This document shows positions 41,299 through 59,433 of a DNA stretch of 64,000 bases, one piece after another. Each line of letters begins with the position of its first letter. The stretch's first letter is position 1. The notes under the pieces were generated by a model. It made no database searches and was not told the origin of the DNA. It saw only the letters and a list, made by a program, of their open reading frames with translations. This DNA is from Streptomyces sp. NBC_01216 (lineage in GTDB: Bacteria > Actinomycetota > Actinomycetes > Streptomycetales > Streptomycetaceae): assembly GCF_035994945.1 (NCBI RefSeq), contig NZ_CP108677.1, forward strand, positions 6,820,001 through 6,884,000. The letters run 5' to 3'. A program made the position numbers and the translations under genes.

Positions 41299-42129
41299 GT
41301 GTCCTCGTCCTCGCCGGCCCCCCGGCCCTCCGGCCCCCGGTCCGTCGACCGTGCCCTCGCCGTCCTCGACGCCGTCGCCGACGCCGACCGGCCGGTCAGC
41401 GCCAAGGCCCTGGCCCGGACGCTCGGCTGCGCCCTGTCGACCGTCTACCACCTGACCGGTCCGCTGATCGCCCGCGGGCACCTGGTACGCACCCCCGACG
41501 GGTACGTCCCCGGCCCACGGGTCCCCGCCCTGCACCGCGCGTTCCTGCGGCACCACGGCCTCGGCTCCCCGGTCGCCGGACTGCTCGCCCGGCTGCGCCG
41601 CGCCTCCGGCGCCGAGGCGTACTTCACCGCGTACCGCGACGGCCGGATCGTCGTCGTCGACACCACGGCGCCGGTGACCGACACCACCCACCCCTTCAGC
41701 CCCGGCCCCGAGGTCCGTGCCCACGCCACCGCACACGGCAAGGCCCTGCTCGCCGGGCTGCCGCGGGCGCTGAGCCGGAGCTATCTCGACGCCCACGGGA
41801 TGGCACGCTTCACCGACCGTACGATCACCGGCCCCGAGCGCTTCGAGGCGGAGCTGGCCCGGGTCCGGGAACAGGGATGCGCCGTCTCCGTGGGAGAGGC
41901 GGACCCCGCGTACACCTGCTTCGCGGAGGCGCTTCCGAGGCCCGGTGACGGCAGTGCGTACGCCCTGTCCGTCTCGCTGCCCACCGCCGACTTCCGGCGT
42001 CGGCACGGAGAGGTCCGGGCGGCCCTGGCCCGGGCGGTTCCCCTGCTCGCCGAGGTCCTGCGGGGAGGTCCTTCCGAGGCCGCCCAGACATCCGTGGAAG
42101 CGCGTTTTCCGGCCCTGCCGGAATTCTGA
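41299..42129 (+). CDS. IclR-family transcriptional regulator
   Basis: The 276-residue protein starts at GTG 41299. The winged helix lies at about 12-68 (SVDRALAVLDAVADADRPVSAKALARTLGC, read in part, and STVYHLTGPLIARGHLVRT). The effector domain runs from about 85 to 250, with HATAHGKALLAGLP and RFTDRTITGPERFEAELARVREQGCAVSVGEADP as IclR-type landmarks. A Pro/Ser-rich head precedes the helix. Promoter DNA has been replaced by the insertion-like repeat, so its expression may be altered. Confidence 0.88.
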   Translation: MSSSSPAPRPSGPRSVDRALAVLDAVADADRPVSAKALARTLGCALSTVYHLTGPLIARGHLVRTPDGYVPGPRVPALHRAFLRHHGLGSPVAGLLARLRRASGAEAYFTAYRDGRIVVVDTTAPVTDTTHPFSPGPEVRAHATAHGKALLAGLPRALSRSYLDAHGMARFTDRTITGPERFEAELARVREQGCAVSVGEADPAYTCFAEALPRPGDGSAYALSVSLPTADFRRRHGEVRAALARAVPLLAEVLRGGPSEAAQTSVEARFPALPEF

Positions 42130-42174
42130 CCCGCCCGAATGGCCCGGGTGCCGCCCGTGCCGCACGCTCGTCCC

Positions 42175-42495
42175 ATGATCTTCATCGCCGTTCGTTTCAC
42201 CGCACGTCCCGAGTACGCCGACAGCTGGCTCGACCGCGTCGCCGACTTCACCCGCGCCACCCGCGAGGAGCCCGGCAACCTGTTCTTCGACTGGTCGCGC
42301 AGCGTGGACGACCCGAACCAGTTCGTTCTCCTGGAGGCATTCGCCGACGCCGAGGCCGGCGCGGCGCACGTCGCCTCCGCGCATTTCGAGGAGGGTCTCC
42401 GGACGATGGGCGAGGCGATCGCCGTCACTCCCGAGATCATCAACGCCGAGGTGCCCCAGCAGGGCTGGGGTCCGATGGGTGAACTCGCCCGCTGA
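42175..42495 (+). CDS. Antibiotic biosynthesis monooxygenase (ABM) domain protein
   Basis: The product has 106 residues: IFIAVRFTARPEYADSWLDRVADFTRATREEPGNLFFDWSRS (read in part), FVLLEAFADAEAGAAHVASAHFEEGL, a full ferredoxin-like ABM domain. Members are small dimeric quinone-forming oxygenases or heme-degrading relatives. It follows the IclR gene by 45 bases and is likely its target or operon partner. Confidence 0.85.
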   Translation: MIFIAVRFTARPEYADSWLDRVADFTRATREEPGNLFFDWSRSVDDPNQFVLLEAFADAEAGAAHVASAHFEEGLRTMGEAIAVTPEIINAEVPQQGWGPMGELAR

Positions 42496-42739
42496 CCGCT
42501 GACCGCTGACCGCTGGTCGCCCGGCGTCCGCCCCCGCGCCTTCGTCCGGCGCCGCGCGGGCCCCTCCGGCGCGGGCCCCTCCGGCGCGGGCGCCCGCGCC
42601 GTCCCCCGTCGCGTTCGCCGTTCGTGTGCGGGCTCTCACCGCCGGTGCGCGCGGGTGCGGCCCCCCGTCGCACCCGACAGACTGGACGGACACGAGACTG
42701 GACGAAACACGCCGCACGCGGGTTTGGGGGTGGTCGACG

Positions 42740-45700
42740 ATGCCGCTACGAGAGATGTCCGGCTCGCTGCGCCGCTGGACCCTCCTCTACGTACTGTTCG
42801 TGGCCGTCGTCACCATCGCGTATCTGACCGTCCCCGCCCGGCACACCGCGTTCTGGGCGCTCATCGGCCTCAGCGGCGTCGCCGCCATCCTCGCCGGCGT
42901 CCATCTGCACCGGCCCGCCCGCCGCTGGCCCTGGCTGGTGCTCGCGGCCGCCAACGTCACCTTCGTCGCCGGTGACACCACGTACAACGCACTGGAGGCG
43001 TTCTTCCACCAGAACCGCCCTTTCCCGTCGCTCGCCGATGCCTTCTACCTCGCCACCTACCCCCTCTTCGCGATCGGCCTCTACGGCTTCATCCACCGCC
43101 GGGCCGCCGGCCGCGACCTGGCGGTGGCGCTCGACGCCCTGATCCTCACCTCGGGCGTGGCACTGCTGTCCTGGGTGAACCTGATCAACCCGCTGGCCAC
43201 CTCCCCGGACATGACCTGGGTCGAGCGCGCCATCTCCGCCGCGTACCCCCTGGGCGACGTCCTGATGCTCGCGATGCTCGCCCGGCTGCTCGTCCCCGGC
43301 GGACTGCGTTCGCGGGCCGTGCAGCTGCTCACCCTCGGCACCTGCGGCATCCTCTTCTCCGACGTCGTCTACAGCGTGAAGCAGCTGGACGGGACCTGGC
43401 AGGTCGGCACCCCCTGGGACCTGGGCTGGGTGGTCTTCTTCACCGCCTGGGGCCTCGCCGCCCTCCACCCCTCGATGACCGGGCTCACCGCGCTCGCGCC
43501 GGAACCGACACCCGAGATCGCCGAGCGCCGGCTCTTCCTGCTCGCCCTCGCCTCCCTCATCGCTCCCGCCCTGCTGCTCTTCCAGTCGCTGCGCCAAGAA
43601 GCCGACCAGGACATCGGAGTCATCGCGATCTTCTCCGCGGTCATGTTCCTGCTGGTCCTGATCCGGCTGTGGGGCATGATGACCGACCACCGCAAGGCCG
43701 AGTCGCGTGAGCGGAGCCTGCGGGTCGCCGCCGCGTCGCTGGTGGCGGCGCTGAGCCCGCGCGAGGTCGCCGCCGCCGTCGAGACCGCCGCGGCCACGCT
43801 CTTCGGCGCCGGAACCCCGCACCACACCGTGCTGCTCACCCGGGACCGCCGTGGCGGGCTGACCGCCGTGTCGACCGGCCGTCGGCCGGAGAACCTGCGG
43901 GTCATGGAGATAGGAGGACCGGGCGGCGGCCCGTGGCGCGAACAGCTCGGCGACGGCAGCCTCCTCGTCCCCGTCGACGCGCTCGCCCCGGCCGTCGCCG
44001 CCGCGCTCGCCCCCGAGACCCACGCCCTGCTCTGCCCGCTCGCCCTCCAGACCCCCGCCGCCGGTGAGTCGTTGCTCGGCGCCGTGCTCCTCGCCGGGTC
44101 GGAGAAGAAGCTGTCCGAGATCGCCGGCTCCGCCCAGTCGCTCGCCTCCCAGGCCGCGCTCGCCCTGGAGCGCTTCGGGCTGAGCGAGGAGGTCAGCCGC
44201 CGTACGAGCGAGGCGTACTTCCGCACCCTGGTGCACAACACGTCCGACGTCATCCTCATCGTGGACGACGACGACACCATCCGGTACGCGAGCCCGTCCG
44301 CGGAGAGCATGTTCGGGCACTCCCTGCTGCCCGGCACCCCGCTGACCGGACTCCTCGCCCCCGGCGACTCCGGCAGTGCCCTGCGGATCCTCGCCGGCGT
44401 CCGTTCCCGGGGGAACGTGGACGCCCGTGACGACTGGAAACTGCTGCACGGCGGCTCCGCCGACCTGGAGGTCGAGGTCCGGTGCAGCAACCTGCGGGAC
44501 GACCAGACCGTGCACGGTCTGGTGCTTACCCTCCGGGACGTCACCGAACAGCGGAAGCTGGAACGCGAGCTCACCCACCGTGCCTTCCACGACTCGCTGA
44601 CCGGTCTGCCCAACCGGGTCCTGCTCCTGGAGCGCATCGAGCGGGCCCTGCTGCGCGGCCGACGCGAATCCACCCTGACCTGCATGCTCTTCGTCGACCT
44701 GGACGACTTCAAGGTCGTCAACGACACCATGGGGCACTCGGTCGGGGACGAACTCCTCGTCGCCGTGGCCCGCCGGCTCACCTCCGTGCTCCGGCTCACC
44801 GACACCGCCGCCCGGCTGGGCGGCGACGAGTTCGCCGTGCTGATCGAGGGCGCCCGCGAACCCGGCGACGCCGAGGTCCTCGCCGCCGAGATCGTCAGCA
44901 CCCTCAGCCAGCCCTTCCACCTCACCGACGGGGCCGTGTCCGTCTCGACCAGCGTCGGCGTCGCCACCGTCCTCGACAGCGCCCACGCCGAGGAACTCCT
45001 CGGCCACGCCGACCTCGCCCTGTACGCCGCCAAGGCCGCCGGGAAGAAGCGGTGGCGGCGGTTCCGGCCCGAGCTGCACTCCCGGCTCGTCGCCCGCCAC
45101 GAGCTGCAGGCAGGGATGGACAACGCGATCGCCCAGCACGCCTTCGCCCTGCGCTACCAGCCCATCGTCACGGTCGACGACGCGGACCTGGCGGGATTCG
45201 AGGCCCTCATCCGCTGGCCGCACGCACGACGCGGCATGGTCCCGCCCGAGCAGTTCATCACCCTCGCCGAGGAGAGCGGCCACATCATGCCGCTCGGCGC
45301 CTGGGTGCTCGACCACGCGGCCCACGACATCGCCCGCTGGCAGCGCGCGCACCGCCGGATGCCGGCGCTGTGCGCCAACGTGAACGTCTCCGCCCGCCAG
45401 TTCCGCGACCCCGGCCTGCTCGACGTGGTCCGGCGCACCCTGCGCTCCTCGGGGCTCGCCCCCGGCTCGCTGGTCCTGGAGCTCACCGAGTCCGTCCTCA
45501 TGCACCACGACGAACAGATCGGCACCACCATGCGGGCCCTGAAGGACCTCGGGGTGTCCATCGCCATCGACGACTTCGGTACCGGTTTCTCCTCGCTCAG
45601 CTACCTGCGCGAGTTCCCCATCGACGTGCTGAAGGTCGACAAGTCGTTCATCGACGACATCACCACCGACGGCCAGCAGGTCGCCCTCGTCGAGGGCATC

Positions 45701-47230
45701 GTGCGGATCGCCGACGTCCTCGGGCTCCAGGTCGTCGCCGAGGGGATCGAGAACGAGGACCAGCGCTCCCTGCTCGCCGACATGGGCTGCCGCTTCGGCC
45801 AGGGCTACCTCTTCGCCCGTCCGATGACCGCCCATCAGGCCGAGACCTTCCTGCACCGGCCGCCGACGGCGGGAGCGCCCGCCCGCCCGGCCCGCACCGC
45901 CCCGGCCGTACGGACCGCCCCCGCCGACGCGCCCGCCGACGGCGCCCCGGGCCCGGGCTCCCGAGCGGCCCGTCTCGACGCGCGCTGGCGGGACCTGGAG
46001 CGGCTCAAGCACACCAGCAAGATGTGCGACGCCGTCATCGACGAGATCGACGGGCGCAGGCTCCGCGTCGGCGACCACTGGCTGATCGACTTCGCCTCCT
46101 GCAACTATCTCGGCTTCGACCTCGACCCCGAGATCATGGCCGCCATCGACCCCCAGGTGCGCACCTGGGGCACCCACCCCAGCTGGTCCCGGCTCATCGG
46201 CAGTCCCCGGCTCTACCCGCGCATCGAGGAACGCCTCACCGACCTCCTCGGGGCACCCGACACCCTGCTCCTGCCGACCATCACCCTCATCCACCAGTCG
46301 GTCATCCCACTGCTCGCGGCCGGCGGCCAGGTGTTCGTCGAGGCCCAGGCCCACCGCACCATCTACGACGGCTGCGTCGTCGCCCGCGGGCAGGGCGCCG
46401 ATCTGCACCGCTTCCGGATCGACGAGCCGTGGGAGCTCGACGCGATGCTGCGCGACGCCCCCGGCGGCGCCCGCCTCGTCTGCATGGACGGCGTCAACAG
46501 CATGACCGGCAACTACCCCGACCTGCGGACCACCGCCCGGATCTGCCGTGAGCACGGCGCCCTGCTCTACGTGGACGACGCCCACGGATTCGGCGTCATC
46601 GGCGAACGCGGCCCGCAGGAGACCAGCCCCTACGGGGACCGTGGCAACAGCATCGTGCGCCACCTCGGCGAGACCTACGACGGCATCGTCCTCGTCGGCG
46701 GATTCTCCAAGGCGTACTCCTCGCTGCTCGCCTTCCTCGCTCTGCCCCGCCGCCTGAAGGACCACCTCAAGGTGGCCGCCGCCCCGTACCTCTACTCCGG
46801 CCCCTCGCCGACCGCGTCGCTCGCCACCGCCCTCGCCGGACTCGACGTCAACGAGGAGCGCGGCGACGCCATCCGGGCCGATCTGCACCGCAGGACCGCA
46901 CGGGTCCTCGACCACGTACGCGGCCTCGGCATCGCCACGCCCAACACCGACGGCCTGCCGATCATCGAGATCCCGCTCGGAGACCCCGCCGAACTGGAGT
47001 CCGTCGCCGCGTTCCTGTGGGACCGGGGCATCTACGTCACCCTCGCCAGCTACCCCCTCGTCCCGCGCGACCAGGTGGGTTTCCGGGTCCAGATCACCGC
47101 CGCCAACACCGACGAGGAGATCGAGGAGCTCAACGACGCCGTCACCGAGTTGTCAGCCCGCTTCGCCCTGCGACGCCTCCCTGGCGTCCGGCCCGGCACG
47201 ATCCCGGCCGGACGGGCCGATGAGACGTGA
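42740..47230 (+). CDS. Membrane PAS-GGDEF-EAL protein fused to an alpha-oxoamine synthase
   Basis: The protein has 1,496 residues from ATG 42740, with GGGGGTGG upstream. Order: multi-helix membrane sensor (about 12-325), GAF-like region (about 340-490), PAS (about 495-610), GGDEF (motif at 694-698, with inhibitory RLTD site at 685-688), EAL (EALIRW at 821; VAEGIE late), a Pro/Ala linker (about 1,045-1,080), then a complete PLP-dependent alpha-oxoamine synthase. That last domain shows NYLGF, an HRTIYDG histidine, the VDDAHGFGVIG aspartate and the PLP lysine 1,324 in GGFSKAYSS. Both c-di-GMP motifs look active. The last domain would join an acyl-CoA with an amino acid to an amino ketone, like CqsA, BioF or serine palmitoyltransferase. 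The frame is unbroken over the fusion. It is coupled to a methyltransferase gene. Product is unknown. Confidence 0.9.
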   Translation: MPLREMSGSLRRWTLLYVLFVAVVTIAYLTVPARHTAFWALIGLSGVAAILAGVHLHRPARRWPWLVLAAANVTFVAGDTTYNALEAFFHQNRPFPSLADAFYLATYPLFAIGLYGFIHRRAAGRDLAVALDALILTSGVALLSWVNLINPLATSPDMTWVERAISAAYPLGDVLMLAMLARLLVPGGLRSRAVQLLTLGTCGILFSDVVYSVKQLDGTWQVGTPWDLGWVVFFTAWGLAALHPSMTGLTALAPEPTPEIAERRLFLLALASLIAPALLLFQSLRQEADQDIGVIAIFSAVMFLLVLIRLWGMMTDHRKAESRERSLRVAAASLVAALSPREVAAAVETAAATLFGAGTPHHTVLLTRDRRGGLTAVSTGRRPENLRVMEIGGPGGGPWREQLGDGSLLVPVDALAPAVAAALAPETHALLCPLALQTPAAGESLLGAVLLAGSEKKLSEIAGSAQSLASQAALALERFGLSEEVSRRTSEAYFRTLVHNTSDVILIVDDDDTIRYASPSAESMFGHSLLPGTPLTGLLAPGDSGSALRILAGVRSRGNVDARDDWKLLHGGSADLEVEVRCSNLRDDQTVHGLVLTLRDVTEQRKLERELTHRAFHDSLTGLPNRVLLLERIERALLRGRRESTLTCMLFVDLDDFKVVNDTMGHSVGDELLVAVARRLTSVLRLTDTAARLGGDEFAVLIEGAREPGDAEVLAAEIVSTLSQPFHLTDGAVSVSTSVGVATVLDSAHAEELLGHADLALYAAKAAGKKRWRRFRPELHSRLVARHELQAGMDNAIAQHAFALRYQPIVTVDDADLAGFEALIRWPHARRGMVPPEQFITLAEESGHIMPLGAWVLDHAAHDIARWQRAHRRMPALCANVNVSARQFRDPGLLDVVRRTLRSSGLAPGSLVLELTESVLMHHDEQIGTTMRALKDLGVSIAIDDFGTGFSSLSYLREFPIDVLKVDKSFIDDITTDGQQVALVEGIVRIADVLGLQVVAEGIENEDQRSLLADMGCRFGQGYLFARPMTAHQAETFLHRPPTAGAPARPARTAPAVRTAPADAPADGAPGPGSRAARLDARWRDLERLKHTSKMCDAVIDEIDGRRLRVGDHWLIDFASCNYLGFDLDPEIMAAIDPQVRTWGTHPSWSRLIGSPRLYPRIEERLTDLLGAPDTLLLPTITLIHQSVIPLLAAGGQVFVEAQAHRTIYDGCVVARGQGADLHRFRIDEPWELDAMLRDAPGGARLVCMDGVNSMTGNYPDLRTTARICREHGALLYVDDAHGFGVIGERGPQETSPYGDRGNSIVRHLGETYDGIVLVGGFSKAYSSLLAFLALPRRLKDHLKVAAAPYLYSGPSPTASLATALAGLDVNEERGDAIRADLHRRTARVLDHVRGLGIATPNTDGLPIIEIPLGDPAELESVAAFLWDRGIYVTLASYPLVPRDQVGFRVQITAANTDEEIEELNDAVTELSARFALRRLPGVRPGTIPAGRADET

Positions 47231-47982
47231 TGGCGACGGCCGGGCGAGAGGTGCGCAGGAACCGCGACGCGGACTGGAACGCCTGGCCCGTCGCGGAGTA
47301 CCTGGCCGAGAACTACCGCCGGCTGCACCCCTGCGACCGGGACGTCATCCGCCACCACTCCGCCTTCTACCGCCAGTTCCCCCCCGACTCCCTCGCCCGT
47401 ACCCTCGAACTCGGCGCGGGCCCCAACCTCTACCCGCTGATGCCGGCCACCGCGGCCGGCCGCCGCGTCGAGGCCGTCGAACCGAGCGCCGCCGGCCGCG
47501 CCTACCTCCGGCGCCAGCTGACCCACGGCCCCGAGGACAGCTGGGAGCCGTTCTACGCGCTGGCCCGGGCGCTCGACCCCGCGCTGCCCCGCACCCTGGC
47601 CGAGGCCCTCACCCGTGTCCACGTGGTCCGCGGCGACGCCGGCACGCTGACCGAGGGCCGCTACGACACCGCGTCGATGAACTTCGTCGCCGAGAGCGTC
47701 ACCGAGGACTTCGGCGAGTTCACAGCGCTGTGTGAGGCATTCGTCCGCGCCGTGCGGCCCGGCGGCGGGCTCGTCGCCGCCTTCATGGCCGGCATGCCGA
47801 GCTACCGCATCGGCCAGGGGCCGCTCTGGCCGGCCTGCCCGGTGGACGAGCCCGCGCTGCGCGCCGTCTTCGGCCCCCACACCACCGCCCTGCGCGTCAC
47901 CCGGCTCGCGAAGGACCGCACCCTGCCCGAGTACGGGGACGACGGGGTGCTGCTGCTCACCGCCCGACGGACCACCCCTTGA
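47230..47982 (+). CDS. SAM-dependent methyltransferase
   Basis: The product has about 250 residues. ATG 47230 overlaps the upstream TGA (TGATG); GTG 47227 would give the equally common GTGA overlap. SAM motif I is TLELGAGPNLYPLM at about 57-70, followed by VEAVEPSAAGRAYL (motif II acidic residue), YDTASMNFVAESVTED and RPGGGLVAAFMAG. N-terminal helices suit a small-molecule methyltransferase of the NNMT-like sort. Coupling to the oxoamine synthase fusion suggests it methylates that enzyme's product. Its last 26 bases overlap the converging glycoside hydrolase gene. Confidence 0.8.
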   Translation: MATAGREVRRNRDADWNAWPVAEYLAENYRRLHPCDRDVIRHHSAFYRQFPPDSLARTLELGAGPNLYPLMPATAAGRRVEAVEPSAAGRAYLRRQLTHGPEDSWEPFYALARALDPALPRTLAEALTRVHVVRGDAGTLTEGRYDTASMNFVAESVTEDFGEFTALCEAFVRAVRPGGGLVAAFMAGMPSYRIGQGPLWPACPVDEPALRAVFGPHTTALRVTRLAKDRTLPEYGDDGVLLLTARRTTP

Positions 47983-49219
47983 TCAGCTCGGAGTACGTGT
48001 CGAGCGAGGAGCCGAGTGTGCCGTCGTACAGCTGCTGGTCGAACGCCCACATCAGGCCCTCGAGACCGCACGTGCCGAGCTGCCGGAAGGCCGCCGCCAT
48101 CACCCCCGGCCGGTACGCCGCCACCTGCGGCCCCGCACTCTCCCCGGACAGGTGCCGGAACCCCTCCGCCCGCGCCACCGCCACCACCCAGCGGGCCGAG
48201 GACCAGGTCCGCACGGTCGCGTCGGGAGCCGACCCCACCGCACCGGAGTCGCCCGGCGCGCAGCCATTGTCGGTGGGCCGGCCGGTGCCGTCCACCAGGG
48301 CGGTGGTGGTGATCTGCACCTGGTCGCGGTGCTCCACCAGGCCGAGTGTGGCGAAGAATCCCACGCCCTGGCCGATCAGACGCGCCCCGTCGCCGCGGCC
48401 GTCCAGGTAGGTGGCAACGGCGGCGTCCCGGTCGGCCGGGTAGAAACCCGCCCCTGGCACCAGCAGCTTCAGCGGCCCCCGGTGCCCGAGCCCGGTGTAG
48501 AGCTCGATCTGCCAGTTGACCGCGTCGGCGAGCGACCCCAGGTACCAGTCGTACCAGCGCCGCACCTGGCGTTCGGTGAACGACGCCCCCCGGTAGCTGT
48601 GCTCCCCGGGACGCCAGCCGGGGTACGGGCTCGCCGCCTGGGCCTGCTGGTCGTACGCCCAGAAGGCGCCACCGTCCCGCCCGTCCGGGAGCGGCCGTGG
48701 ATAGCCGAACTCACCGTTCTCGTCGGTCCCGAGCCGGAGCGCCCACACGTCGTCCAGACCGATCCGCTCGTCCACCTGCCGTACGTACGCGGCGACCTCC
48801 GCCCGCACCGGCGCGCTGAACACGAGGTTCGGGGTGTTCGTGGAACGCTCGCCGTACTGGTTCCGCCACACCGACTCCGGGTGGGCGTCCGCGAGCCAGG
48901 CCGGCGGGTGGTTGAGCCCCAGCCCCGCCTCCACCCGCAGGCCGGCGTCCCGGAACGACGCCAGCCGTTCCCGCACCTGCCGTGCGTACGCCTCGTCGTA
49001 CACGCCCCGCTCCGGTTCGAACCGGTCCCAGGCCACCTGGAGATGGGCGACCCGCAGCCCGTGCGCGTACTCCTCCGCCGCCCGCTCCGGATCGGTTTGC
49101 AGGGTCCCGAACAGCGGCACCGGCGGCTGCTCGTCCGGGCGCAACGGCCCGAACGCGGCCGCCGCCAGCACCAGTACGGTGAGCAGCGCCGCCCTCACAG
49201 GCGGACGCGCCGGGTTCAT
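47957..49219 (-). CDS. Secreted TIM-barrel glycoside hydrolase (beta-galactosidase-like)
   Basis: The 420-residue product has a signal-type N-terminus (AALLTVLVLAAAAFG, about 10-24). A GH42/GH5-like barrel follows: HLQVAWDRFEPERGVYDE at about 58, LRVEAGLGLNHPPAWL at about 90, a probable acid/base glutamate in LGTDENGEFGYP at about 165, and LMWAFDQQLYDG near the end. It is last in the glycan operon and overlaps the upstream GT4 by ATGA. It may trim or release the exported polymer. Sugar specificity is not known. Confidence 0.7.
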   Translation of the reverse strand: MNPARPPVRAALLTVLVLAAAAFGPLRPDEQPPVPLFGTLQTDPERAAEEYAHGLRVAHLQVAWDRFEPERGVYDEAYARQVRERLASFRDAGLRVEAGLGLNHPPAWLADAHPESVWRNQYGERSTNTPNLVFSAPVRAEVAAYVRQVDERIGLDDVWALRLGTDENGEFGYPRPLPDGRDGGAFWAYDQQAQAASPYPGWRPGEHSYRGASFTERQVRRWYDWYLGSLADAVNWQIELYTGLGHRGPLKLLVPGAGFYPADRDAAVATYLDGRGDGARLIGQGVGFFATLGLVEHRDQVQITTTALVDGTGRPTDNGCAPGDSGAVGSAPDATVRTWSSARWVVAVARAEGFRHLSGESAGPQVAAYRPGVMAAAFRQLGTCGLEGLMWAFDQQLYDGTLGSSLDTYSELIKGWSVGR

Positions 49220-50319
49220 GGCAGCAGCTCCCGGTACAGCGAGGCGTACTGCGCGGCGAACCGCTCCGGACCGAAGTGCTCCTCCACCGCGAGCCGGCCG
49301 CGCTCGGCGAGGACCTCCCAGGACCGCGGCTGGTCCAGCAGCCACACCAACTGGTGACCCGTACGGCGGGCCTCGCCACCGGGTGCCCGCAGCACCGCGT
49401 TGCCGAAGTCGGCGAACTGCGGCAGATCACTGAGGATCACCGGTCGCCCGGTGGCCAGCGCCTGGAGCACCGTCAACGGGATGTCGGCCTTGCCGCCGAT
49501 CACCGGCGGCGGGAACAGGAAGACGTGCGCCGAGGTGATCAGCGCCCGCATGTCGTCGACGTACCCCCGGACCTCGGTGTCGACCAGGCCCCGGGCCCCG
49601 GCCCGCTCCCGCAACGCCTCCTCCAGGGAGTGCAGATCCTGCCCGGGCCGCCCCCGCATCGCCAGCACCAGCCGGAAGCGGGCACCGGCCCGGACCGCCT
49701 CCGCCGCCGCGTCGATCGCCGTCTCCGCCCCGCCCTGCGGGTCGTGGTGCCCGGCGTACAGCACCAGGGGCAGGCCGGGCGGCCGGGGCCGGAACGGCCA
49801 GTCCTCGAGCGGGATCATCGGCGGGATCACCCGTACGTCGCCGAAGTGCGCGGCGCGCAGCCGTCTCGCCATCGACTCGGACAGGGCGACCGTCGTCCCC
49901 AGCGGCCGGGTCCGGGGCAGCAGCCGCGCGTCCATCACCCCGGGCACCGTGTGCACCACCGGGCGGGCCCCGAGGAGCAGCGGACGCAGCCAGGAGAACG
50001 CCGGGAAGATGCGCCCGATCGTCAGGAACGCGTGCACCAGGTCACAACGGCGCGCCTGCACCGTCGCCGCGACCGCCGACTGCGCCCGCTCCGACAGGTG
50101 CGGCACCCCGTCCCGGGACAGAATCCGCACCGCGTGCCCGCCAAGCGCCACCCGAGGTGGGTGGCCGCGCCGGTGCGGCCACTGCGAGAACCAGGTGAAC
50201 TCCACGTCCGGCAGGGTCCCGAGCACGTCGGAGGCGAGCCGGACGTCGGCCCCGTCGGCCCCGTCCAGCGGACTGCTGGTCAGCAGCAGGACGCGGGGCC
50301 GGCGCGGGGTGGTGCTCAT
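49216..50319 (-). CDS. Glycosyltransferase family 4
   Basis: The protein has 367 residues from ATG 50319 in an ATGA overlap with the gene before it. GT-B fold: RVLLLTSSPLDGADGADVRLASDVLG at the N-terminus (read in part), VVHTVPGVMDARLL in the middle, PLVLYAGHHDPQGGAETAIDAA at about 195 as the second Rossmann domain, and HVFLFPPPVIGGKADIPLTVLQALATGRPVI at about 285, where the sugar nucleotide is bound. Cytoplasmic, with no membrane segment. It adds one sugar in the glycan made by this operon. Confidence 0.85.
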   Translation of the reverse strand: MSTTPRRPRVLLLTSSPLDGADGADVRLASDVLGTLPDVEFTWFSQWPHRRGHPPRVALGGHAVRILSRDGVPHLSERAQSAVAATVQARRCDLVHAFLTIGRIFPAFSWLRPLLLGARPVVHTVPGVMDARLLPRTRPLGTTVALSESMARRLRAAHFGDVRVIPPMIPLEDWPFRPRPPGLPLVLYAGHHDPQGGAETAIDAAAEAVRAGARFRLVLAMRGRPGQDLHSLEEALRERAGARGLVDTEVRGYVDDMRALITSAHVFLFPPPVIGGKADIPLTVLQALATGRPVILSDLPQFADFGNAVLRAPGGEARRTGHQLVWLLDQPRSWEVLAERGRLAVEEHFGPERFAAQYASLYRELLP

Positions 50320-51881
50320 CGCGGACCTGCCGCGGCCGGGGCGGGCGGCAGTTCGTACAGCGCGAGCGTCCCGTAGGTGGGCCCGCGGAAGGCGTACAGC
50401 AGCCGGGCATCGCGGGTGAGCCCGCGCACCTCGGCGGGAGTGAAGCGGCCGTAGCCCTCGTCGATGACCTTCCACGGCACGATGACGTACCGGGCCCGGT
50501 GGGCCGCCTGTTCGCCGGGCGTGATCCAGGGGCCGATCCGGTACGTGTCGCCGAAGGTCCAGAAGGTGACGCCGTCCGTGCGCAGTCCGTCGACGGACAC
50601 GACGCCGCTGCCGGGCGGCACGTGCTGCCGCAGGTACGCCTGCATCCTGACGAGCCCGTCGTCCGGGGTTCCGCGATCGGCGGCGTAGACGACCGCGGGT
50701 GTCGCCAGGAGCGCCACGAGCCCGGCCACCGCCACCGCCCGCAGCGCGGGGCGGCGACGGGGCATCGGCACTGTCACGGCCAGCGCCACCAGGTTCGGCA
50801 CGAAGAGCAGGTACAGCGCCTGCTCCTCCAGCGTGCCGATGCCCAGCGCGTAGGCCAGTGTGACGATCGCACAGGCGTGGAAGAGGGCGAGCAGCCGGTA
50901 CACCGGATCCCGGCGGCGCAGCAGCAGGAACAGTGCCACCGGTGTCAGCGCGAGCAGCAGGTAGGTGACGGTGAACGCGGGCAGCTCACCGGCGAGCCGG
51001 CCGGCGAGCGACGGCGTGCCCGGGGCGTTGAACCCGGTCTCCTGCGTGAGGCCGAGCAGCCGGTCCAGACCCTGCGTCTTCTGCTCCCAGAACGGCGCCC
51101 AGTGGCCGAAGCGCACGACGAGCGACACGTACACCGTGTACGGGACCAGTGCGACGGCCAGGGCGAGACCGGTCAGCCGGCGCGGCGGCCCCCAGTTCAG
51201 CGCGAGTGCCAGGAGCAGGGGAAGTACCGTGATCAGTACCGAGTGGTCCTTCGTGAGCACCGCCAGGCCGAGGAGCAGTCCGCCGGCCGTCGCCCGCGCC
51301 CGGGGGCGCCGCGGCGGCTCCGCCCGGCACAGCGGCAGCAGCACCAGGAAGCCCGCGAGCACCCACGTCATGGTGGCGGTCTCCAGGAGCACCCAGTTGT
51401 TCTGCCGGATGCAGAACTGGTCGAGAGCGAAGAGCAGTCCGGCCACCAGACCGGCCGGCCGGGACCGTACCCGGGCGACGAGGAGGACGAGCAGCGCCGC
51501 GGACACACCGGCCAGCAGGGCGTTCAGCACGCGGAGCGAGTGGACCTGGGCGATGACGTCCTGGTGCTCGCCGAACAGGCGCATCCACCCGGCCTCCAGA
51601 TAGAAGAACCCGGGCGGATGGAGGAAGAACAGCCCGCCCGAGGTGTGCGGGAATCCGCCCTGCGCGGCGCTGCGGCCCAGGTCCTGGTAGATGAGCTCGT
51701 CCACGAACAGGTCGCTCGCCCGGTCCACCCGGATCAGCCGCACGACCACCGTCAGGACGGCCGCGAGCAGCGCGTACCCCGCCGTCGGCACCGAGCGGGC
51801 GGCCGTCATGCGGGGCGGTGGGCCCGGGCGCCGCCCCGGCCGCTCGGCGGGTGGCGCGACGGAGGACCGGGGGAGGGTCAT
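50316..51881 (-). CDS. GT39-type membrane glycosyltransferase (ArnT/PMT-like)
   Basis: The 521-residue protein has about eleven transmembrane helices. The first outside loop holds DLFVDELIYQDLG with the acidic pair that is the catalytic site in PMT- and ArnT-type enzymes, and FFLHPPGFFYLEAGWMRLFG after it. A last soluble part (about 430-521) lies outside. Such enzymes use lipid-linked sugars on the outer membrane face. ATGA overlaps on both sides put it firmly in the operon. Confidence 0.82.
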   Translation of the reverse strand: MTLPRSSVAPPAERPGRRPGPPPRMTAARSVPTAGYALLAAVLTVVVRLIRVDRASDLFVDELIYQDLGRSAAQGGFPHTSGGLFFLHPPGFFYLEAGWMRLFGEHQDVIAQVHSLRVLNALLAGVSAALLVLLVARVRSRPAGLVAGLLFALDQFCIRQNNWVLLETATMTWVLAGFLVLLPLCRAEPPRRPRARATAGGLLLGLAVLTKDHSVLITVLPLLLALALNWGPPRRLTGLALAVALVPYTVYVSLVVRFGHWAPFWEQKTQGLDRLLGLTQETGFNAPGTPSLAGRLAGELPAFTVTYLLLALTPVALFLLLRRRDPVYRLLALFHACAIVTLAYALGIGTLEEQALYLLFVPNLVALAVTVPMPRRRPALRAVAVAGLVALLATPAVVYAADRGTPDDGLVRMQAYLRQHVPPGSGVVSVDGLRTDGVTFWTFGDTYRIGPWITPGEQAAHRARYVIVPWKVIDEGYGRFTPAEVRGLTRDARLLYAFRGPTYGTLALYELPPAPAAAGPR

Positions 51882-52729
51882 GACACCCCTCCCGCCGGGT
51901 GGACAGGGGGAACAGCGGGAGCGGCAGGAGAGGCGGGGACGGCCTGAACGCCGCCGGGCAGCAGGTACACCTCGGGGACCCGCGGGATCGTGCCGTCGGG
52001 GAACAGGGCGTTCACCTGGGTGCGGTAGCCCCGGATCAGCTCGGCCTTCGCGCCGAGTCCCCGGTCCCAGGACGCCTCGGTGGCCGCGAGCCCGGAGACG
52101 AAGTCCGGGTCGGGCGCGGCGCGCAGATTGTAGGGGAAGTCGCTGTAGTAGACGACCGGCAGACCGCTCCGCTCGGCGGCCGTCCGCACCAGCAGGTGAT
52201 CGGCGTGCCCGCCGACACCGAGCGGCGCGAGCACCAGCCCGCGGCCTCCGGGCAGCAGTTCCCGCACGGTGTCGGTCACCTGCCGCACGGTCTTCGCGTC
52301 ACTGGGCGCGAGATACCCGCGCGACAGGTGCAGCCGGTGCGTCGGATACACGTGGCCGAGCTCGGGCAGCAGCCGGGCGGCCAGGCGGCGGCCCCGGTTC
52401 TGCGCGGCGACACGGCGGAAGAGACCGTCCACGAAACCACCGTGGAACCGGTCGACGCCGAGCTTCGCCAGTACCGCCCGGTCCTCGGCACGCCGCTCCA
52501 TGTACAGCTCCTCGGCGTTCGCCGCCCCGGTCTGCCGCAGGAACTGGCGGGCCGACAGCGTGTACGGCGGAGGGGCTCCCTCCGTGAAGACCGTCATCAC
52601 CGTCACGGAGGAGCGGTCCCGCAGCTCCCCGAGGAGCGCGCCGCAGGACAGCACGGCGTCGTCCGGGTGGGGCGAGAGCACCAGCAGGACTCCGCAACGG
52701 GACAGCGCGGTCAGCGCGTCGACTGCCAT
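51878..52729 (-). CDS. PIG-L-family deacetylase
   Basis: The product has 283 residues. The zinc site is evident: LSPHPDDAVLSCG at about 19-31 and GVGGHADHLLV at about 180, giving the two HPDD residues and the HxxH histidine. Members remove acetyl from N-acetyl-hexosamine lipids or related sugars (LmbE, MshB, GlcNAc-PI). In this operon it would free amino groups on a sugar or lipid-linked intermediate. It overlaps the next gene upstream by 19 bases. Confidence 0.88.
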   Translation of the reverse strand: MAVDALTALSRCGVLLVLSPHPDDAVLSCGALLGELRDRSSVTVMTVFTEGAPPPYTLSARQFLRQTGAANAEELYMERRAEDRAVLAKLGVDRFHGGFVDGLFRRVAAQNRGRRLAARLLPELGHVYPTHRLHLSRGYLAPSDAKTVRQVTDTVRELLPGGRGLVLAPLGVGGHADHLLVRTAAERSGLPVVYYSDFPYNLRAAPDPDFVSGLAATEASWDRGLGAKAELIRGYRTQVNALFPDGTIPRVPEVYLLPGGVQAVPASPAAPAVPPVHPAGGVS

Positions 52730-54615
52730 GACGTTCTCCGGTCCTTCCGCGGCCGCCGCCGCAGGGCGGGGCCGTCGACGAGCCGACGGGTGAGCGCGAG
52801 ATAGGCGCTCGTCATCTCGTCCCATGTGTAGTGCTGTGCGGCCAGACCCGCCTGCCGTCCCAGGCGTCCCCGCAGTACGGGGTCGGAGGCCAGCGCCGCC
52901 ATCCGTTCGCCGAACGCCGCCGTGTCGAAGGGGGGCACGGCCACGTCGCCGCCGCCTCGCATCCAGCGCAGCGCCGGCAGGTCGAAGTGGAGCACCGGTT
53001 TGCCGTACGCCATGCCCTCCAGCGCGACCAGGCCGAAGGACTCGTGGCGCGAGGGCATGACCAGGAAGGCACTGTCCCGCAGCAGCCGCCGCTTCAGTTC
53101 CTCGTCCGCGTACCCCACCCAGCGCACCCCGGGCCCCCGCGCCTGCAGGAGCTGCGAGAGCCGGCGTTCCTCGGCGGCGGTGCCCCGGCCGGCCAGCACG
53201 AGCTCCATCTGCGGCCGGCCGCTTCCGTAGGCGTCCAGCAGAAGGTCGAGCCCCTTGGTCCAGGTGTCGATCCGCCCCAGGAAGAGAATGGAGTCCCCGC
53301 TGCCGACCCCCGTGTCGTCCGGCCCGCGCTGCTCGACCCCGTTGGCGATCACATGCACGGAGGCGCGTGGGCTGAGCCGGCGCACCGCCGAGGCGTCGGC
53401 CTCGTTCAGTGCCACGATGTTCCGGTAGCAGCGCAGCCCGACCCGCTCCACCAGGAAGAACGGCAGATGGTAGCGGCGCCACAGGGCCTCGGCGCTGCGC
53501 CCCTGGTCGATGCCGACGACGGGCGACCGGGACACCAGCGGCAGGAAACTCGTCGAGAACGGCGGCGTGAAGCTCTCCAGCCACACGTCGTGCCGGATCC
53601 GCCGGGCCACCAGTGGCAGCAGGGCCAGGAACAGCAGCTGTCCGGCCCGCGGCCCGGCCCGGCACACGGGCAGCATCACGTAGCGGACGCCGTGGCGTTG
53701 TTCGGACCCGGCGTTGCGGCCCGCCGTCACCACGGTCACCTGGTAGTGCTCGGCGAGCCGCCGCGCCACCTTCTCCACCACGAGGGCGCCGCCACCGCGG
53801 TACGCGGAGTTCCCCGCGTCGTCGTAGACCGAGACGACGACCCGCTTGCGGCGTTCGGTGCCGGTGCCGGAGGGGAGACCGGACGCCCGTGCCGGGTGGC
53901 GCCCGGCACCGCGTGCCGCCGGGTCCGAGGATGGCGGCACGATGTCGAGGACGCTTTCCAGGGCGGCGGCCGCGACCGCGTCCGGCGGCCGCTCGCCGTC
54001 GAGCCCGGCCACCCGCGGCAGCCGGGCCGCCCACGTGCGATGTCGCGCCCACCAGGAGGCCGGTGAGCCCGCCGCCGCCTCCCAACCGCGGTGGGCCAGC
54101 GTGTCCGGCAGGGTCTCCGGGACAAGGGTCAGGTCGTAGCGGTCGGAGATCCGGAGGAAGCGCCCGCTCGCGGCGCCGCCGGCCGGCAGGTCGAACTTCA
54201 CCAGTCCGTCCAGTGGCCCCCGGTCGGTCACCACCACGGCGGGCCGGCCCCGGGCCACGACGGCGGCACCCAGCCGGGCCACGCGGATGCGCAGCGCGAG
54301 CTCGCCCGCGTCGACGAAGGCGTGGGCACGGCGGAGCCACGGTCCCCGGTGCGCGGGCCGCGGTGCCCACTCACCCACCCCCGTCCTGCCCGGCTCCCCC
54401 GCCACCCTCACCCGTGGGGGAACCGGGAACCAGCGGCAGAGCACACAGCCGTAGCAGTGCGCGGTCACCACCGCGTACCCGCGGCGGCGCAGCCCTCCGG
54501 CGAGGGCGCGCACCAGCGACGACTTCCCGGTGTGGTCCGGCCCGGACACCGCCACGAGCAGCGGCGCCCGTCGTACGTCCTCGCTGCCGCTCCGTCGATC
54601 CGTCATGGCGCTCAC
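52711..54615 (-). CDS. Thymidylate-kinase-like P-loop domain fused to a GT4 glycosyltransferase
   Basis: The 634-residue protein starts at GTG 54615 in a GTGA overlap. Residues 15-230 form a P-loop kinase: VAVSGPDHTGKSSLVRAL (Walker A), VVVTDRGPLDGLVKFDLP (DR motif) and a lid-like region. From about 258 a GT4 glycosyltransferase begins: VVVSVYDDAGNSAYRGGGALVVEKVARRL (read in part), SILFLGRIDTWTKGLDLLL at about 440 and VMPSRHESFGLVALEGMAYGKPVL at about 525 with the E-x7-E motif. Such a fusion is unusual; the kinase may phosphorylate a lipid, sugar or nucleoside precursor. Confidence 0.85.
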   Translation of the reverse strand: MSAMTDRRSGSEDVRRAPLLVAVSGPDHTGKSSLVRALAGGLRRRGYAVVTAHCYGCVLCRWFPVPPRVRVAGEPGRTGVGEWAPRPAHRGPWLRRAHAFVDAGELALRIRVARLGAAVVARGRPAVVVTDRGPLDGLVKFDLPAGGAASGRFLRISDRYDLTLVPETLPDTLAHRGWEAAAGSPASWWARHRTWAARLPRVAGLDGERPPDAVAAAALESVLDIVPPSSDPAARGAGRHPARASGLPSGTGTERRKRVVVSVYDDAGNSAYRGGGALVVEKVARRLAEHYQVTVVTAGRNAGSEQRHGVRYVMLPVCRAGPRAGQLLFLALLPLVARRIRHDVWLESFTPPFSTSFLPLVSRSPVVGIDQGRSAEALWRRYHLPFFLVERVGLRCYRNIVALNEADASAVRRLSPRASVHVIANGVEQRGPDDTGVGSGDSILFLGRIDTWTKGLDLLLDAYGSGRPQMELVLAGRGTAAEERRLSQLLQARGPGVRWVGYADEELKRRLLRDSAFLVMPSRHESFGLVALEGMAYGKPVLHFDLPALRWMRGGGDVAVPPFDTAAFGERMAALASDPVLRGRLGRQAGLAAQHYTWDEMTSAYLALTRRLVDGPALRRRPRKDRRTSWQSTR

Positions 54616-57056
54616 GACTCCCTCCTCCGGACCCGCTTGGCCACCACCAGCGGAACCCGGAGCGACGCCTCACGCGCCGCGACGCGCAGCCGGCCCTGGC
54701 CGAGGAGATGACCTGAATGTTCCGCCCCCACCCGCAGGGAGGTACCCACGGACAGCGGCAGCGGCAGCCGCACCGCCTCCCCGCGGTCCAGCCGCGCCAT
54801 CGCGTCCCGTGCCGCGCCCAGCGCCAGTCCGCCACCGGCCGACCAACCCTCACGAGCCGCCTCCCGGAGCGCCTCGGCGACCACGTCGGGGCGCAGCAGC
54901 GGCCGGAGGGCGAGCAGTTCGGACAGGTCCAGGGTGAGGTTCTGGAACAGCGCGTGTGCCAGCCAGATGCGCAGGCGGTCGGCCGGGCAGGGGATCAGCC
55001 AGTCGGGGCGGGGGTCCCGCGCACGCCCGGCGGCCACGTCGGGATCGCCGCTCCCGGCGGGCAGCGCCCGGGCGAACAGGCGGTCGGTCGGTACCACCGG
55101 AACCCCGAACCAGGAGACAGCGGTGTGCAGGTGCGCCGCGGGCCCGCTCGCCGGATCGAGCAGAACCTTGGAGGAACGCTCCAGCCAGTACCGCTCACGG
55201 CGCACGTACCAGCCCGCGAGGACCTCCTGCGCGTGCTGCCAGCGTCCGTACGGGACGACGAGGTCGAAGTTGCCGTACACGTAGTCGCCCGACAGGTCGG
55301 CCTTGATGAGGACCGTGGGGATGCCGGCGCTCCGCAGGCGGCCGGTCGACTCGAACAGATTGCGCCGGAACAGGCCGGTGGCGGCGGCCACCTCGGCCCG
55401 CGTGGTGGCCAGCCGTTCCGGGTAGGCGCGGGCGAGCACGCCTTCGACCTGGTTGCGCCGGGCCAGCGCGAGCGCGCCCAGCAGCTCGGCCTCCGTGGCG
55501 GGCCTGGGCCGGCCGTGCCAGACCGCGTCCACGAGCACCCGTACGGACCGTTCCCCGTCCGGCGGTTCGGGGGTGTGATGCCCGGCCGGGTGCGGTGCCG
55601 CCGGCGGGCCGGGCGAGGTGTCGCCCGGGGCGATCGGCGGCAGGTCGCCGGTGGGCTCACTGTGCCGTCCGAAGAACCACCGCAGGGCGAGTGCCGTGAC
55701 GACGGCTGCGACGCCGAACCACGCCACCGGGAAAGGCCGCAGCAGGACAAGTCCTCCCGCCAGGGCGAGCAGCCACAGCGGCCGGGGGCCCAGGAGGGCG
55801 CGCCGTGCCCGGAAACCGTGGACGCGCGCATGGCGGACCCCGAGTACGAGCAGCGCCAGCAGCGTGCCGGCCAGACCGCCCACCGCCATGCCGACGACAC
55901 CGTGCGCCGACCAGCCGTACCCGAGCCCCGTCACGTACACGGCGAGCCCGGCGAGCAGTGGCTTCAGGCAGGCGTAGTCGTTGACGGCCTGGCAGAACGT
56001 CACGAGCAGCGCGAGGGCGCCGAGTGCGAGGCCGGTCACGGCCGTGAGCGAGAGCAGGACGCCGACCTCCGTGTAGCCGGCGGGGAAGACGCGGGACAGG
56101 AGGGATCCGGGCGTGGTGGCGACGACCGCCGTCATCGGCACCGCCACCTTGAGATACATCCGCAGGGCGTCGCCGGTGAGCGGCGCGCCCGCCCGGCGTC
56201 GCGAGAGCGCCGGCAGGAAGGCGATCGAGACGGCGCTCGCGAGAAAGAGCGGCACCCGGCCCAGCATCACCGCGGCCTGGTAACTCGCCGCCTCGGAACG
56301 GTCGGTGGGGAGCGTCGCCACCAGGATCACGTCCACCGCGGCCATCAGGGCCACCACACCCTGCAGCGAGGCCACCCCGACCGCTCGGCGCCACAGCGCG
56401 CGGTTGGCCGTGGCCGCCAGCCACGGCCGTCCGTGGCCGCCGCGGAACCCGCGCGGCCGGACGAGCAGGAACGGCAGCACACCGACCCCGAACGCCGCGA
56501 GCGCCCCCGCCTCGCCGAGGCCCAGGGCGGCGACGAACACCAGCCCCACGGCCGTCTTCAGCACCGCCTCGGCGGTCGTGACCACGCCGAGGGTGCGCAG
56601 GCGCTCGGTGCCCTGCAGCCAGCCCGCGCTGACCCGGGTGACGTAGATGAGGAAGGTGGCGCCCGCGATGACCAGTGTGGTGGAGGTGCCGGCGAACTGC
56701 GCGGCCACGAGGGCGACCACGAGCGCCGCGAGGACGCCGCCGATCACGCCGGTGACCACCGCGAACCGGACCGCCTCGGACCGCGCCGCCTCCGACTGGG
56801 CCCGTGCGAGCGCCTGGGCGAGCATCCACGGCACGGTCACCACGGCGATCGCCGCCGTGCACACGACCAGGCCCTGCCCGGCCGCGAACACCGCGTAGTC
56901 CCCGACGTCCAGCAGACGGGTCAGCACCAGCGCGTACGCGTAGTTGAGCACGCCGACCGCCACGGCGGCGGTCGCGATCCACCGCGCACCGTGCACGGCC
57001 GTCACCGCGTCCGAGCGGGCGGGCGCACGCCGGGCCGTTGACTGGGCGGACTTCAC
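54612..57056 (-). CDS. Polysaccharide flippase fused to a nucleotidyltransferase-like domain
   Basis: The 814-residue product starts at GTG 57056 (GTGA overlap). Residues 25-465 have about fourteen membrane helices in a MOP/Wzx pattern (NYAYALVLTRLLDVGDYAVFAAGQGL at the start, read in part). A Pro-rich linker follows (about 470-510). The C-terminal 300 residues resemble NTP_transf_5-type proteins: GALALARRNQVEGVLARAYPE, then IPTVLIKADLSGDYVYGNFDLVVPYGRW (read in part). The usual DxD is reduced to NFD, so the domain may be inactive. It would flip a lipid-linked glycan. Confidence 0.85.
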   Translation of the reverse strand: MKSAQSTARRAPARSDAVTAVHGARWIATAAVAVGVLNYAYALVLTRLLDVGDYAVFAAGQGLVVCTAAIAVVTVPWMLAQALARAQSEAARSEAVRFAVVTGVIGGVLAALVVALVAAQFAGTSTTLVIAGATFLIYVTRVSAGWLQGTERLRTLGVVTTAEAVLKTAVGLVFVAALGLGEAGALAAFGVGVLPFLLVRPRGFRGGHGRPWLAATANRALWRRAVGVASLQGVVALMAAVDVILVATLPTDRSEAASYQAAVMLGRVPLFLASAVSIAFLPALSRRRAGAPLTGDALRMYLKVAVPMTAVVATTPGSLLSRVFPAGYTEVGVLLSLTAVTGLALGALALLVTFCQAVNDYACLKPLLAGLAVYVTGLGYGWSAHGVVGMAVGGLAGTLLALLVLGVRHARVHGFRARRALLGPRPLWLLALAGGLVLLRPFPVAWFGVAAVVTALALRWFFGRHSEPTGDLPPIAPGDTSPGPPAAPHPAGHHTPEPPDGERSVRVLVDAVWHGRPRPATEAELLGALALARRNQVEGVLARAYPERLATTRAEVAAATGLFRRNLFESTGRLRSAGIPTVLIKADLSGDYVYGNFDLVVPYGRWQHAQEVLAGWYVRRERYWLERSSKVLLDPASGPAAHLHTAVSWFGVPVVPTDRLFARALPAGSGDPDVAAGRARDPRPDWLIPCPADRLRIWLAHALFQNLTLDLSELLALRPLLRPDVVAEALREAAREGWSAGGGLALGAARDAMARLDRGEAVRLPLPLSVGTSLRVGAEHSGHLLGQGRLRVAAREASLRVPLVVAKRVRRRES

Positions 57057-58675: not shown

Positions 58676-59433
58676 CTGGTCAGGGAGATGCGCAGCAGGT
58701 CCGTCATGGACCGCAGTCCGTCGCGCCGTGCGGAGAACGTCGACCCCTCCTGGTCGGTCCAGTCGACCGGCACCTCCACGACGTCGTGTCCGGCCTTGAC
58801 GACACGGGCGAGCAGTTCGACGTCGAAGGCGAAGCCGTCGACGTGGCAGTCGTGGACGATCTCCCGGCCGAGCGGGCCGGGGAAGAACTTGAAGCCGCAC
58901 TGGGTGTCGGCGACGTCCGGCAGCGTCAGCCGGGCGAGGGCGCGGAAGACCGCGCCGCCACCGCGGCGCAGCCTCGGCTGCTCGACGGTGAGGTGCGCGC
59001 CGGGCGCGTGCCGGGAGGCGATCACGGCTCCGTGGCCCGCGCGCAGCAGGGCCATGACGGGGTCGAGGGTCTCGATGGGGGTGGCGTTGTCGGCGTCTGC
59101 GTAGCCGACGTAGCGGGCGGCGGAGGTCTCGATGCCTCGCCGCACGGCGGCGCCCTTCCCCCGGTCTCCGCAGCCGATGACGTGGAGACCCACGGAGCGT
59201 CCCATGGCGGAGGCGGCGAACCGGTCGAGGCAGTCGGGGGTGCCGTCCACACTGTTGTTGTCGACCACGACCACGGCGGAGGACCAGGGGCGGCGGGCGA
59301 GGAACCGCAGGGCACCGGCGACGGTGGCGGGCAGCCGTTCGCGCTCGTTGAAGGCCGGGATGACCAGCTCGAGTTCGACCGGGGGCCGGGTGAGCGAGCG
59401 GGGGAGTGTGGCATGCGCGTCGACGTGCGTCAT
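58672..59433 (-). CDS. Glycosyltransferase family 2 (polyprenyl-phosphate sugar synthase-like)
   Basis: The product has 253 residues from ATG 59433, with GAGGAGGCG upstream. The GT-A fold shows LVIPAFNERERLPATV, VVVDNNSVDGTPD, GKGAAVRRGI and the metal site YVGYADADNATP, followed by DTQCGFKFFPG and VPVDWTDQEGSTFS. These are hallmarks of the Alg5/DPM-like group that loads a sugar on polyprenyl phosphate. It is the first gene of the eight-gene operon and would supply the donor for the GT39 enzyme. Confidence 0.88.
   Translation of the reverse strand: MTHVDAHATLPRSLTRPPVELELVIPAFNERERLPATVAGALRFLARRPWSSAVVVVDNNSVDGTPDCLDRFAASAMGRSVGLHVIGCGDRGKGAAVRRGIETSAARYVGYADADNATPIETLDPVMALLRAGHGAVIASRHAPGAHLTVEQPRLRRGGGAVFRALARLTLPDVADTQCGFKFFPGPLGREIVHDCHVDGFAFDVELLARVVKAGHDVVEVPVDWTDQEGSTFSARRDGLRSMTDLLRISLTR

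Follow-up and report, generated by a model that had tools for sequence, protein, structure and literature searches.

Background

What is a complete biosynthetic enzyme doing at the end of a membrane-bound protein of c-di-GMP turnover? The question is raised by one gene in a 64,000-nucleotide stretch of DNA from Streptomyces sp. NBC_01216 (hereafter the window), which encodes a membrane region, a PAS domain, GGDEF and EAL domains and an alpha-oxoamine synthase (AOS) in a single polypeptide. An earlier note on this sequence had proposed that c-di-GMP, or the membrane sensor, directly sets the output of the synthase. A synthase and a membrane sensor are also the components of amino- or hydroxyketone quorum sensing in the CqsA/CqsS and LqsA/LqsS systems. 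The fusion, together with the genes that persistently lie side by side in related actinobacteria, suggests an undescribed chemical signalling system, as far as can be judged from comparison of sequences.

Domain architecture of the fusion protein

The gene is a single frame that runs uninterrupted from ATG to TGA, as the earlier note had stated, and every part that it had listed, from the membrane part and PAS domain through GGDEF with its RxxD site and EAL to the linker, was recovered by Pfam searches, alignment and a ten-helix structure model (Table 1). A GTG codon at 42626 offers an alternative start (1,534 aa), and the homologues P0004 and P0072 start like the ATG at 42740. In the predicted structure the membrane part is modelled as ten helices with a mean pLDDT of 85.8, and the segment that follows it, up to residue ~492, is a possible further sensor region. 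The Pfam matches to PAS_8 (493-539), PAS, GGDEF (148 bits), EAL (243.7 bits) and Aminotran_1_2 (1152-1467, 92.3 bits) are all above cut-off, and in 51 fused relatives the end of the EAL match is separated from the start of the AOS match by 24-82 residues (median 49).

The A-site of the window GGDEF domain is intact, GGDE being kept in all 108 aligned rows, and its RxxD site, RLTD, lies five residues ahead of the GGDEF motif. Ten residues of the EAL domain (E821, R825, N882, E914, E917, D944, K965, E1001, E1004 and Q1021) are each invariant in the 108 rows, D945 is found in 107 and K968 in 100. The RxxD Arg is present in 87 of the rows and the Asp in 88; the Arg is missing from 21, mostly of Paractinoplanes/Actinoplanes. 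The window protein has both, and so combines an intact A-site, the EAL catalytic residues and RxxD, as a bifunctional GGDEF-EAL protein should.

Table 1. Features of the fusion gene and of the gene that follows it, in window coordinates
Feature	Position	Strand	Basis and remarks
Fusion gene	42740..47230	+	1,496 aa; in cdgF slot of the S. venezuelae-like genome G015
Ten-helix membrane region, putative sensor/receptor (residues 1-318)	42740..43693	+	Structure model; homologues lie next to AOS genes throughout the phylum
Residues 319-492	43694..44215	+	Without Pfam match
PAS (residues 493-601)	44216..44542	+	Pfam
GGDEF domain (residues 615-771)	44582..45052	+	Pfam; GGDEF at 694-698, RxxD at 685-688
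EAL domain (residues 794-1028)	45119..45823	+	Pfam, alignment; expected catalytic residues
Pro/Ala-rich linker (residues ~1041-1085)	45860..45994	+	Sequence
Alpha-oxoamine synthase domain (residues 1086-1496)	45995..47227	+	PLP Lys1324 at 46709-46711
SAM-dependent methyltransferase, SCO2525/NNMT kind	47230..47982	+	Domain matches below cut-off

The synthase domain

Alpha-oxoamine synthases depend on a PLP-binding lysine, a stacking His, the Asp and His of a DxAHG motif and a C-terminal Arg that binds a carboxylate. The window protein has these as K1324, H1205, D1279, H1282 and R1449, conserved in 113, 116, 116, 116 and 116 of 116 aligned rows, respectively, and its last domain exhibits the type I PLP fold of the alpha-oxoamine synthase superfamily. 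The His, Asp and Lys1324 on which the earlier note had based its claim of a full PLP enzyme are therefore all there, with His1282 in addition; by its fold and catalytic residues the domain is a complete alpha-oxoamine synthase, whose putative chemistry is the decarboxylating condensation of an acyl-CoA with an amino acid.

The comparison that the earlier note had advised, with BioF, KBL, serine palmitoyltransferase (SPT) and CqsA, places the domain far below the equivalog cut-offs of the first three. It scores 168.9 bits against an NCBIfam cut-off of 426.45 for BioF proper, 139.4 against 460 for KBL proper and 152.7 against 500 for SPT proper. For the CqsA/LqsA family (NF005526) the comparison was made through the separate AOS of locus L041, 70% identical to the window AOS, which scores 84.6 bits against a cut-off of 428; for the window protein NF005526 is not among the 25 matches listed out of 42. 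Identity of the window AOS to the group of SPT, BioF, KBL and ThAOS is 24-28% in two alignments, and the solved structures closest to it include lipid-base enzymes such as SPT. In three fused relatives (L087, L098 and L119) the position of the PLP lysine is taken by Gln, Arg or Asn; their AOS domain is open and otherwise conserved, and no methyltransferase gene lies directly downstream.

Fused and separate forms

The GGDEF-EAL-AOS order, whose recurrence the earlier note had wished to see examined, is common. The 80 named loci that we collected ranked highest among 337 in similarity to a Dactylosporangium AOS and were thus selected by AOS similarity alone; their genes were called with our own script, by positional GC or, where GC was low, as the longest frames. 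All 80 have a GGDEF-EAL partner, fused to the AOS in 42 and separate, within four genes, in 38. Because selection was by AOS similarity alone, the 42 fusions rule out chance or an assembly error, the latter a case that the earlier note had itself allowed for. A further search, limited to proteins of 0.55-1.75 times the query length, to which separate genes are invisible, has 120 long relatives among the matches listed. In 37 of the 38 separate loci the GGDEF-EAL gene is immediately upstream on the same strand, with a median gap of 17 bp and ten overlaps; the exception is L099, where it lies four genes off on the opposite strand. The membrane region was detected near 36 of the 38, and in L056 and L071 just a piece of the GGDEF-EAL gene is visible.

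Among 199 Streptomyces genomes, 28, including that of the window, have a full-length AOS match of at least 71% identity and three have fragments, after which the next matches listed are at most 34% identical. The two halves are separate neighbouring genes in seven of the 28 (L021-L027), while the other 21 have open frames of at least 1,451 aa, and for nine of these the fusion was confirmed. The Streptomyces loci L028, L029 and L030 have it in broken or fragmentary form, in L028 and L030 still followed by the methyltransferase gene.

In an AOS tree of 116 rows, built quickly with SH-aLRT support only and without the fragment loci L028-L030, the Streptomycetaceae make up one branch of 61 (support 99, starred), comprising 52 fused and nine separate forms; the 55 rows outside it comprise 53 separate forms and two fused to a ligase and a carrier. 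The tree fits what would be the simplest history, namely one fusion in the Streptomycetaceae followed by several splits. Relatives with separate halves, which the earlier note had named as the case against it, thus exist, both among the Streptomycetaceae (9 of 61 rows) and in all rows outside. Their occurrence indicates that control within one polypeptide is not essential; as the partners stay together, it argues against the need for a single chain and not against a common function. The conserved fusion and adjacency give good support to the view that the AOS and the membrane c-di-GMP protein are functionally coupled.

Correspondence with CdgF of S. venezuelae

The eight GGDEF places in genome G015 are linearly related (r = 0.9998) to the vnz tag numbers of cdgF, cdgA, cdgD, cdgB, cdgE, rmdB, cdgC and rmdA in Table 1 of PMC6205966, and over 914 residues the fusion of G015 shares 99.6% identity with P0072, a protein that bears the name S. 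venezuelae. This collinearity and identity, which depend on the G015 gene map and on the species label carried by P0072, make it very likely that the fusion is CdgF (vnz02140/sven0451). CdgF is printed there as 10TM-PAS-PAC-GGDEF-EAL, with the AOS domain absent, and shares with the window fusion ten membrane helices, a PAS domain and intact GGDEF and EAL domains (PMC6205966). The CdgF passages of that article make no mention of an AOS, its main text contains none of the words 'aminotransferase', 'pyridoxal', 'synthase' and 'transferase', and deletion of cdgF in S. venezuelae is described in it as giving no developmental phenotype. Among the papers listed in a search of the main texts of the open-licence literature, we found no description of an AOS combined with GGDEF/EAL or a diguanylate cyclase, nor, among those listed on AOS or CqsA/LqsA signalling in Actinobacteria/Streptomyces, of a GGDEF-EAL-AOS combination.

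The ten-helix region and its outputs

A sample of 396 genomes of the phylum, with AOS called at E<=1e-60 and the membrane region at E<=1e-25, contains 26 genomes with AOS and 90 with the membrane region. When the two lists were compared by eye, 25 of the 26 AOS genomes had a membrane region (>200 bits) in the same frame as the AOS or within ~5 kb of it; G325 has them on separate contigs. Neighbourhoods were examined for 20 of the 26, the other six, including the window and L035, being judged from match positions, and in all 20 a membrane-region protein is encoded within four genes of the AOS. The partner is kinase-only in three of them (a kinase-receiver protein in L154, a HisKA_3 kinase in L163 and a kinase-receiver-receiver-Hpt protein in L166), L149, L151 and L152 have both PAS-histidine kinase and GGDEF-EAL versions, and the remaining 14 have a GGDEF-EAL output; L150, whose GGDEF-EAL gene runs off the contig, and L164, in which that gene is broken, were not counted as kinase-only. 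Since the neighbour of the AOS in L154, L163 and L166 has just a kinase output, it is the ten-helix region, and not c-di-GMP turnover, that stays with the AOS; the constant unit, judged by gene neighbourhood, is the synthase and the membrane sensor.

A tree of 74 membrane regions, also a quick build with SH-aLRT support only, intermixes the kinase and GGDEF-EAL versions found beside AOS, the kinase group needing four changes. L168 and L187 were labelled in it as AOS-linked by judgement; in L168 the ligase-carrier part runs to the contig end, with no AOS. Alignment A2 was built partly from AOS-linked rows and its scores lean towards them, while the neighbourhood BLAST matches used the window sequence alone.

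In many genomes of the sample of 396 the membrane region occurs with no AOS linked to it. Of 14 genomes from which 20 stretches with the membrane region were taken, an AOS of the family was found at E<=1e-20 just in G344, besides an 88-residue fragment in G391, and the weaker AOS matches in G233, G283 and G368 we take to be other oxoamine synthases. The ten-helix region of L169, L170, L174 and L180, which has no linked AOS, lies ahead of GGDEF-EAL or kinase outputs, and these membrane proteins are possible orphan receptors; that of L169 (1,824 aa) combines the ten-helix region with several PAS repeats, two receivers and an Hpt domain. Three Streptomyces genomes without AOS (G013, G055 and G066) gave no membrane-region match >80 bits. 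The S. ureilyticus locus L108 has a second ten-helix GGDEF-EAL gene (gene 8), which is nearest to Dactylosporangium ones in the tree.

Neighbouring genes and the probable product

The stop codon of the fusion overlaps the start codon of the methyltransferase gene (TGATG). Within four genes of the AOS, a methyltransferase is encoded in 37 of the 80 named loci (best 80 of 337), 36 of them among 44 Streptomycetaceae, and an MFS_3 exporter in 31, including 23 of 29 Micromonosporaceae and 4 of 44 Streptomycetaceae; one or the other is found in 65. Over the same distance the 20 phylum loci have an exporter in eight and a methyltransferase in none, and in the window's genome a search for the MFS_3 family gave no match within ~100 kb of the fusion. 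A long-chain acyl-CoA ligase is encoded upstream of the fusion in S. nigrescens L066, acyl-CoA ligases being found in two of the 80 named loci (best 80 of 337). In L165 and L166 the AOS is preceded in one chain by an acyl-AMP ligase and a carrier protein, whereas that of the window is joined to GGDEF-EAL; it is 41-43% identical to the window AOS and lies beside proteins with the same membrane region. These gene families point to a fatty acyl substrate and a product that would be modified or exported.

A candidate signalling system and its alternatives

The best reading of these data, to which we assign a probability somewhat short of even, is a signal synthase and its receptor, similar to CqsA/CqsS but here with c-di-GMP as the output. 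The AOS would form an amino-ketone by condensing an amino acid with an activated fatty acid. This product would be modified by the methyltransferase of the next gene (most Streptomycetaceae loci) or exported by the adjacent MFS pump (most Micromonosporaceae loci) and would serve as a chemical signal. Its receptor would be the ten-helix membrane region of the partner, which would act through PAS on GGDEF/EAL, so that c-di-GMP follows the signal; a histidine kinase phosphorelay would follow it instead in some other genomes. In the Streptomycetaceae the synthase gene would have been fused once to the receptor gene, giving CdgF. Here we infer the signalling role of the product, its binding by the membrane region, the direction of control and the chemistry alike.

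As in CqsA/CqsS and LqsA/LqsS, an AOS-type synthase is encoded beside a membrane sensor, and the two would make up a candidate quorum-sensing pair, with putative ligand binding and density dependence; the kinase outputs of some loci, the exchangeable output and export are further likenesses. Unlike in those systems, the sensor has ten helices and mostly a GGDEF-EAL output, and the AOS is outside the CqsA/LqsA family. A wider and more hesitant proposal is that amino-ketone signalling may extend across Actinomycetota, from Acidimicrobiia to Streptomyces, with a signal made by the AOS and finished or released by methyltransferase or MFS proteins, a ten-helix receptor without clear known relative, exchangeable outputs and fusion as CdgF.

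The proposal of the earlier note runs in the opposite direction: the membrane sensor or bound c-di-GMP would directly control the AOS, letting an outside cue set the level of an amino-ketone signal or lipid, and the fusion would tether the enzyme to the membrane and the local c-di-GMP pool. The coupling that it implies is well supported, and the 42 fusions among the 80 named loci (best 80 of 337) with their intact GGDEF and EAL residues agree with it. Repeated splits inside the Streptomycetaceae (9 of 61 rows) and the absence of the RxxD Arg from 21 of 108 rows speak against it, however, as do the kinase-only partners in L154, L163 and L166, which make it easier to see the AOS product as read by the sensor than the AOS output as set by c-di-GMP; we consider it unlikely, and the direction from synthase through sensor to c-di-GMP appears more likely than that from c-di-GMP to synthase. 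A plain operon, whose AOS would supply a membrane lipid or natural product and be co-expressed with a sensor-regulator of some other ligand, would account for the lipid-base enzymes such as SPT among the closest solved relatives, for the acyl ligase, methyltransferase and exporter nearby, and for the lack of a known signalling phenotype. Yet the sensor region stays with the AOS despite changes in output, neighbours and gene order, a constancy not required by mere co-expression, and this account also seems to us improbable. Finally, the AOS may be a metabolic sensor (trigger enzyme), whose substrate occupancy adjusts GGDEF/EAL activity while its product is secondary. That the AOS domain of L087, L098 and L119 is otherwise conserved although it lacks the PLP lysine would be explained in this way, but 113 of 116 rows retain the lysine, the AOS is often a separate gene and the methyltransferase, ligase and exporter genes linked to it suggest that its product is of importance, which leaves this explanation very unlikely.

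Several observations weaken the preferred reading of a signal and its receptor. Signal synthase/receptor pairs usually diverge fast. Over 101 loci, a set without the fragment loci L028-L030 and four near-duplicates, the AOS co-diverges with the sensor hardly more closely than with GGDEF/EAL (partial r of 0.50 vs 0.48), so that the sensor does not stand out, and it has changed less than the sensor has (mean distance 0.42 vs 0.84); both results count against this reading. Membrane regions without linked AOS, the lysine-less L087, L098 and L119 and the 21 of 108 rows whose RxxD site has lost its Arg weaken it as well, as do the lack of an MFS_3 gene within ~100 kb of the fusion in the window's genome and, in the account of PMC6205966, of a developmental phenotype upon cdgF deletion.

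The attachment of a synthase to a sensor-bearing c-di-GMP enzyme names a candidate class of ligands for that sensor. It also gives the existing cdgF deletion mutant (as described in PMC6205966) a phenotype to look for, in that a metabolite should be missing and the response to it lost. If the reading is true, antibiotic-producing bacteria would possess a new family of signals and an unstudied receptor domain.

Other genes around the fusion

Adjoining the fusion is a run of glycan genes on the opposite strand (47957-59433), which encodes a GH42-like protein, several kinds of glycosyltransferases, a PMT-type membrane protein, a PIG-L deacetylase and a weak match to a polysaccharide transporter. 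In L040, genes for UDP-glucose dehydrogenase, epimerases and a beta-helix protein are found just upstream of the fusion and a GH15 gene downstream; c-di-GMP may be connected with an exopolysaccharide. Directly upstream of the window fusion, on the same strand (41299-42495), are genes for an IclR-type regulator and a small ABM monooxygenase. In L082 and L086 this position is occupied by a gene for 118 and 106 aa, respectively, and several relatives have there instead a gene for 344-359 aa, which in L068, the one tested, encodes a LacI regulator.
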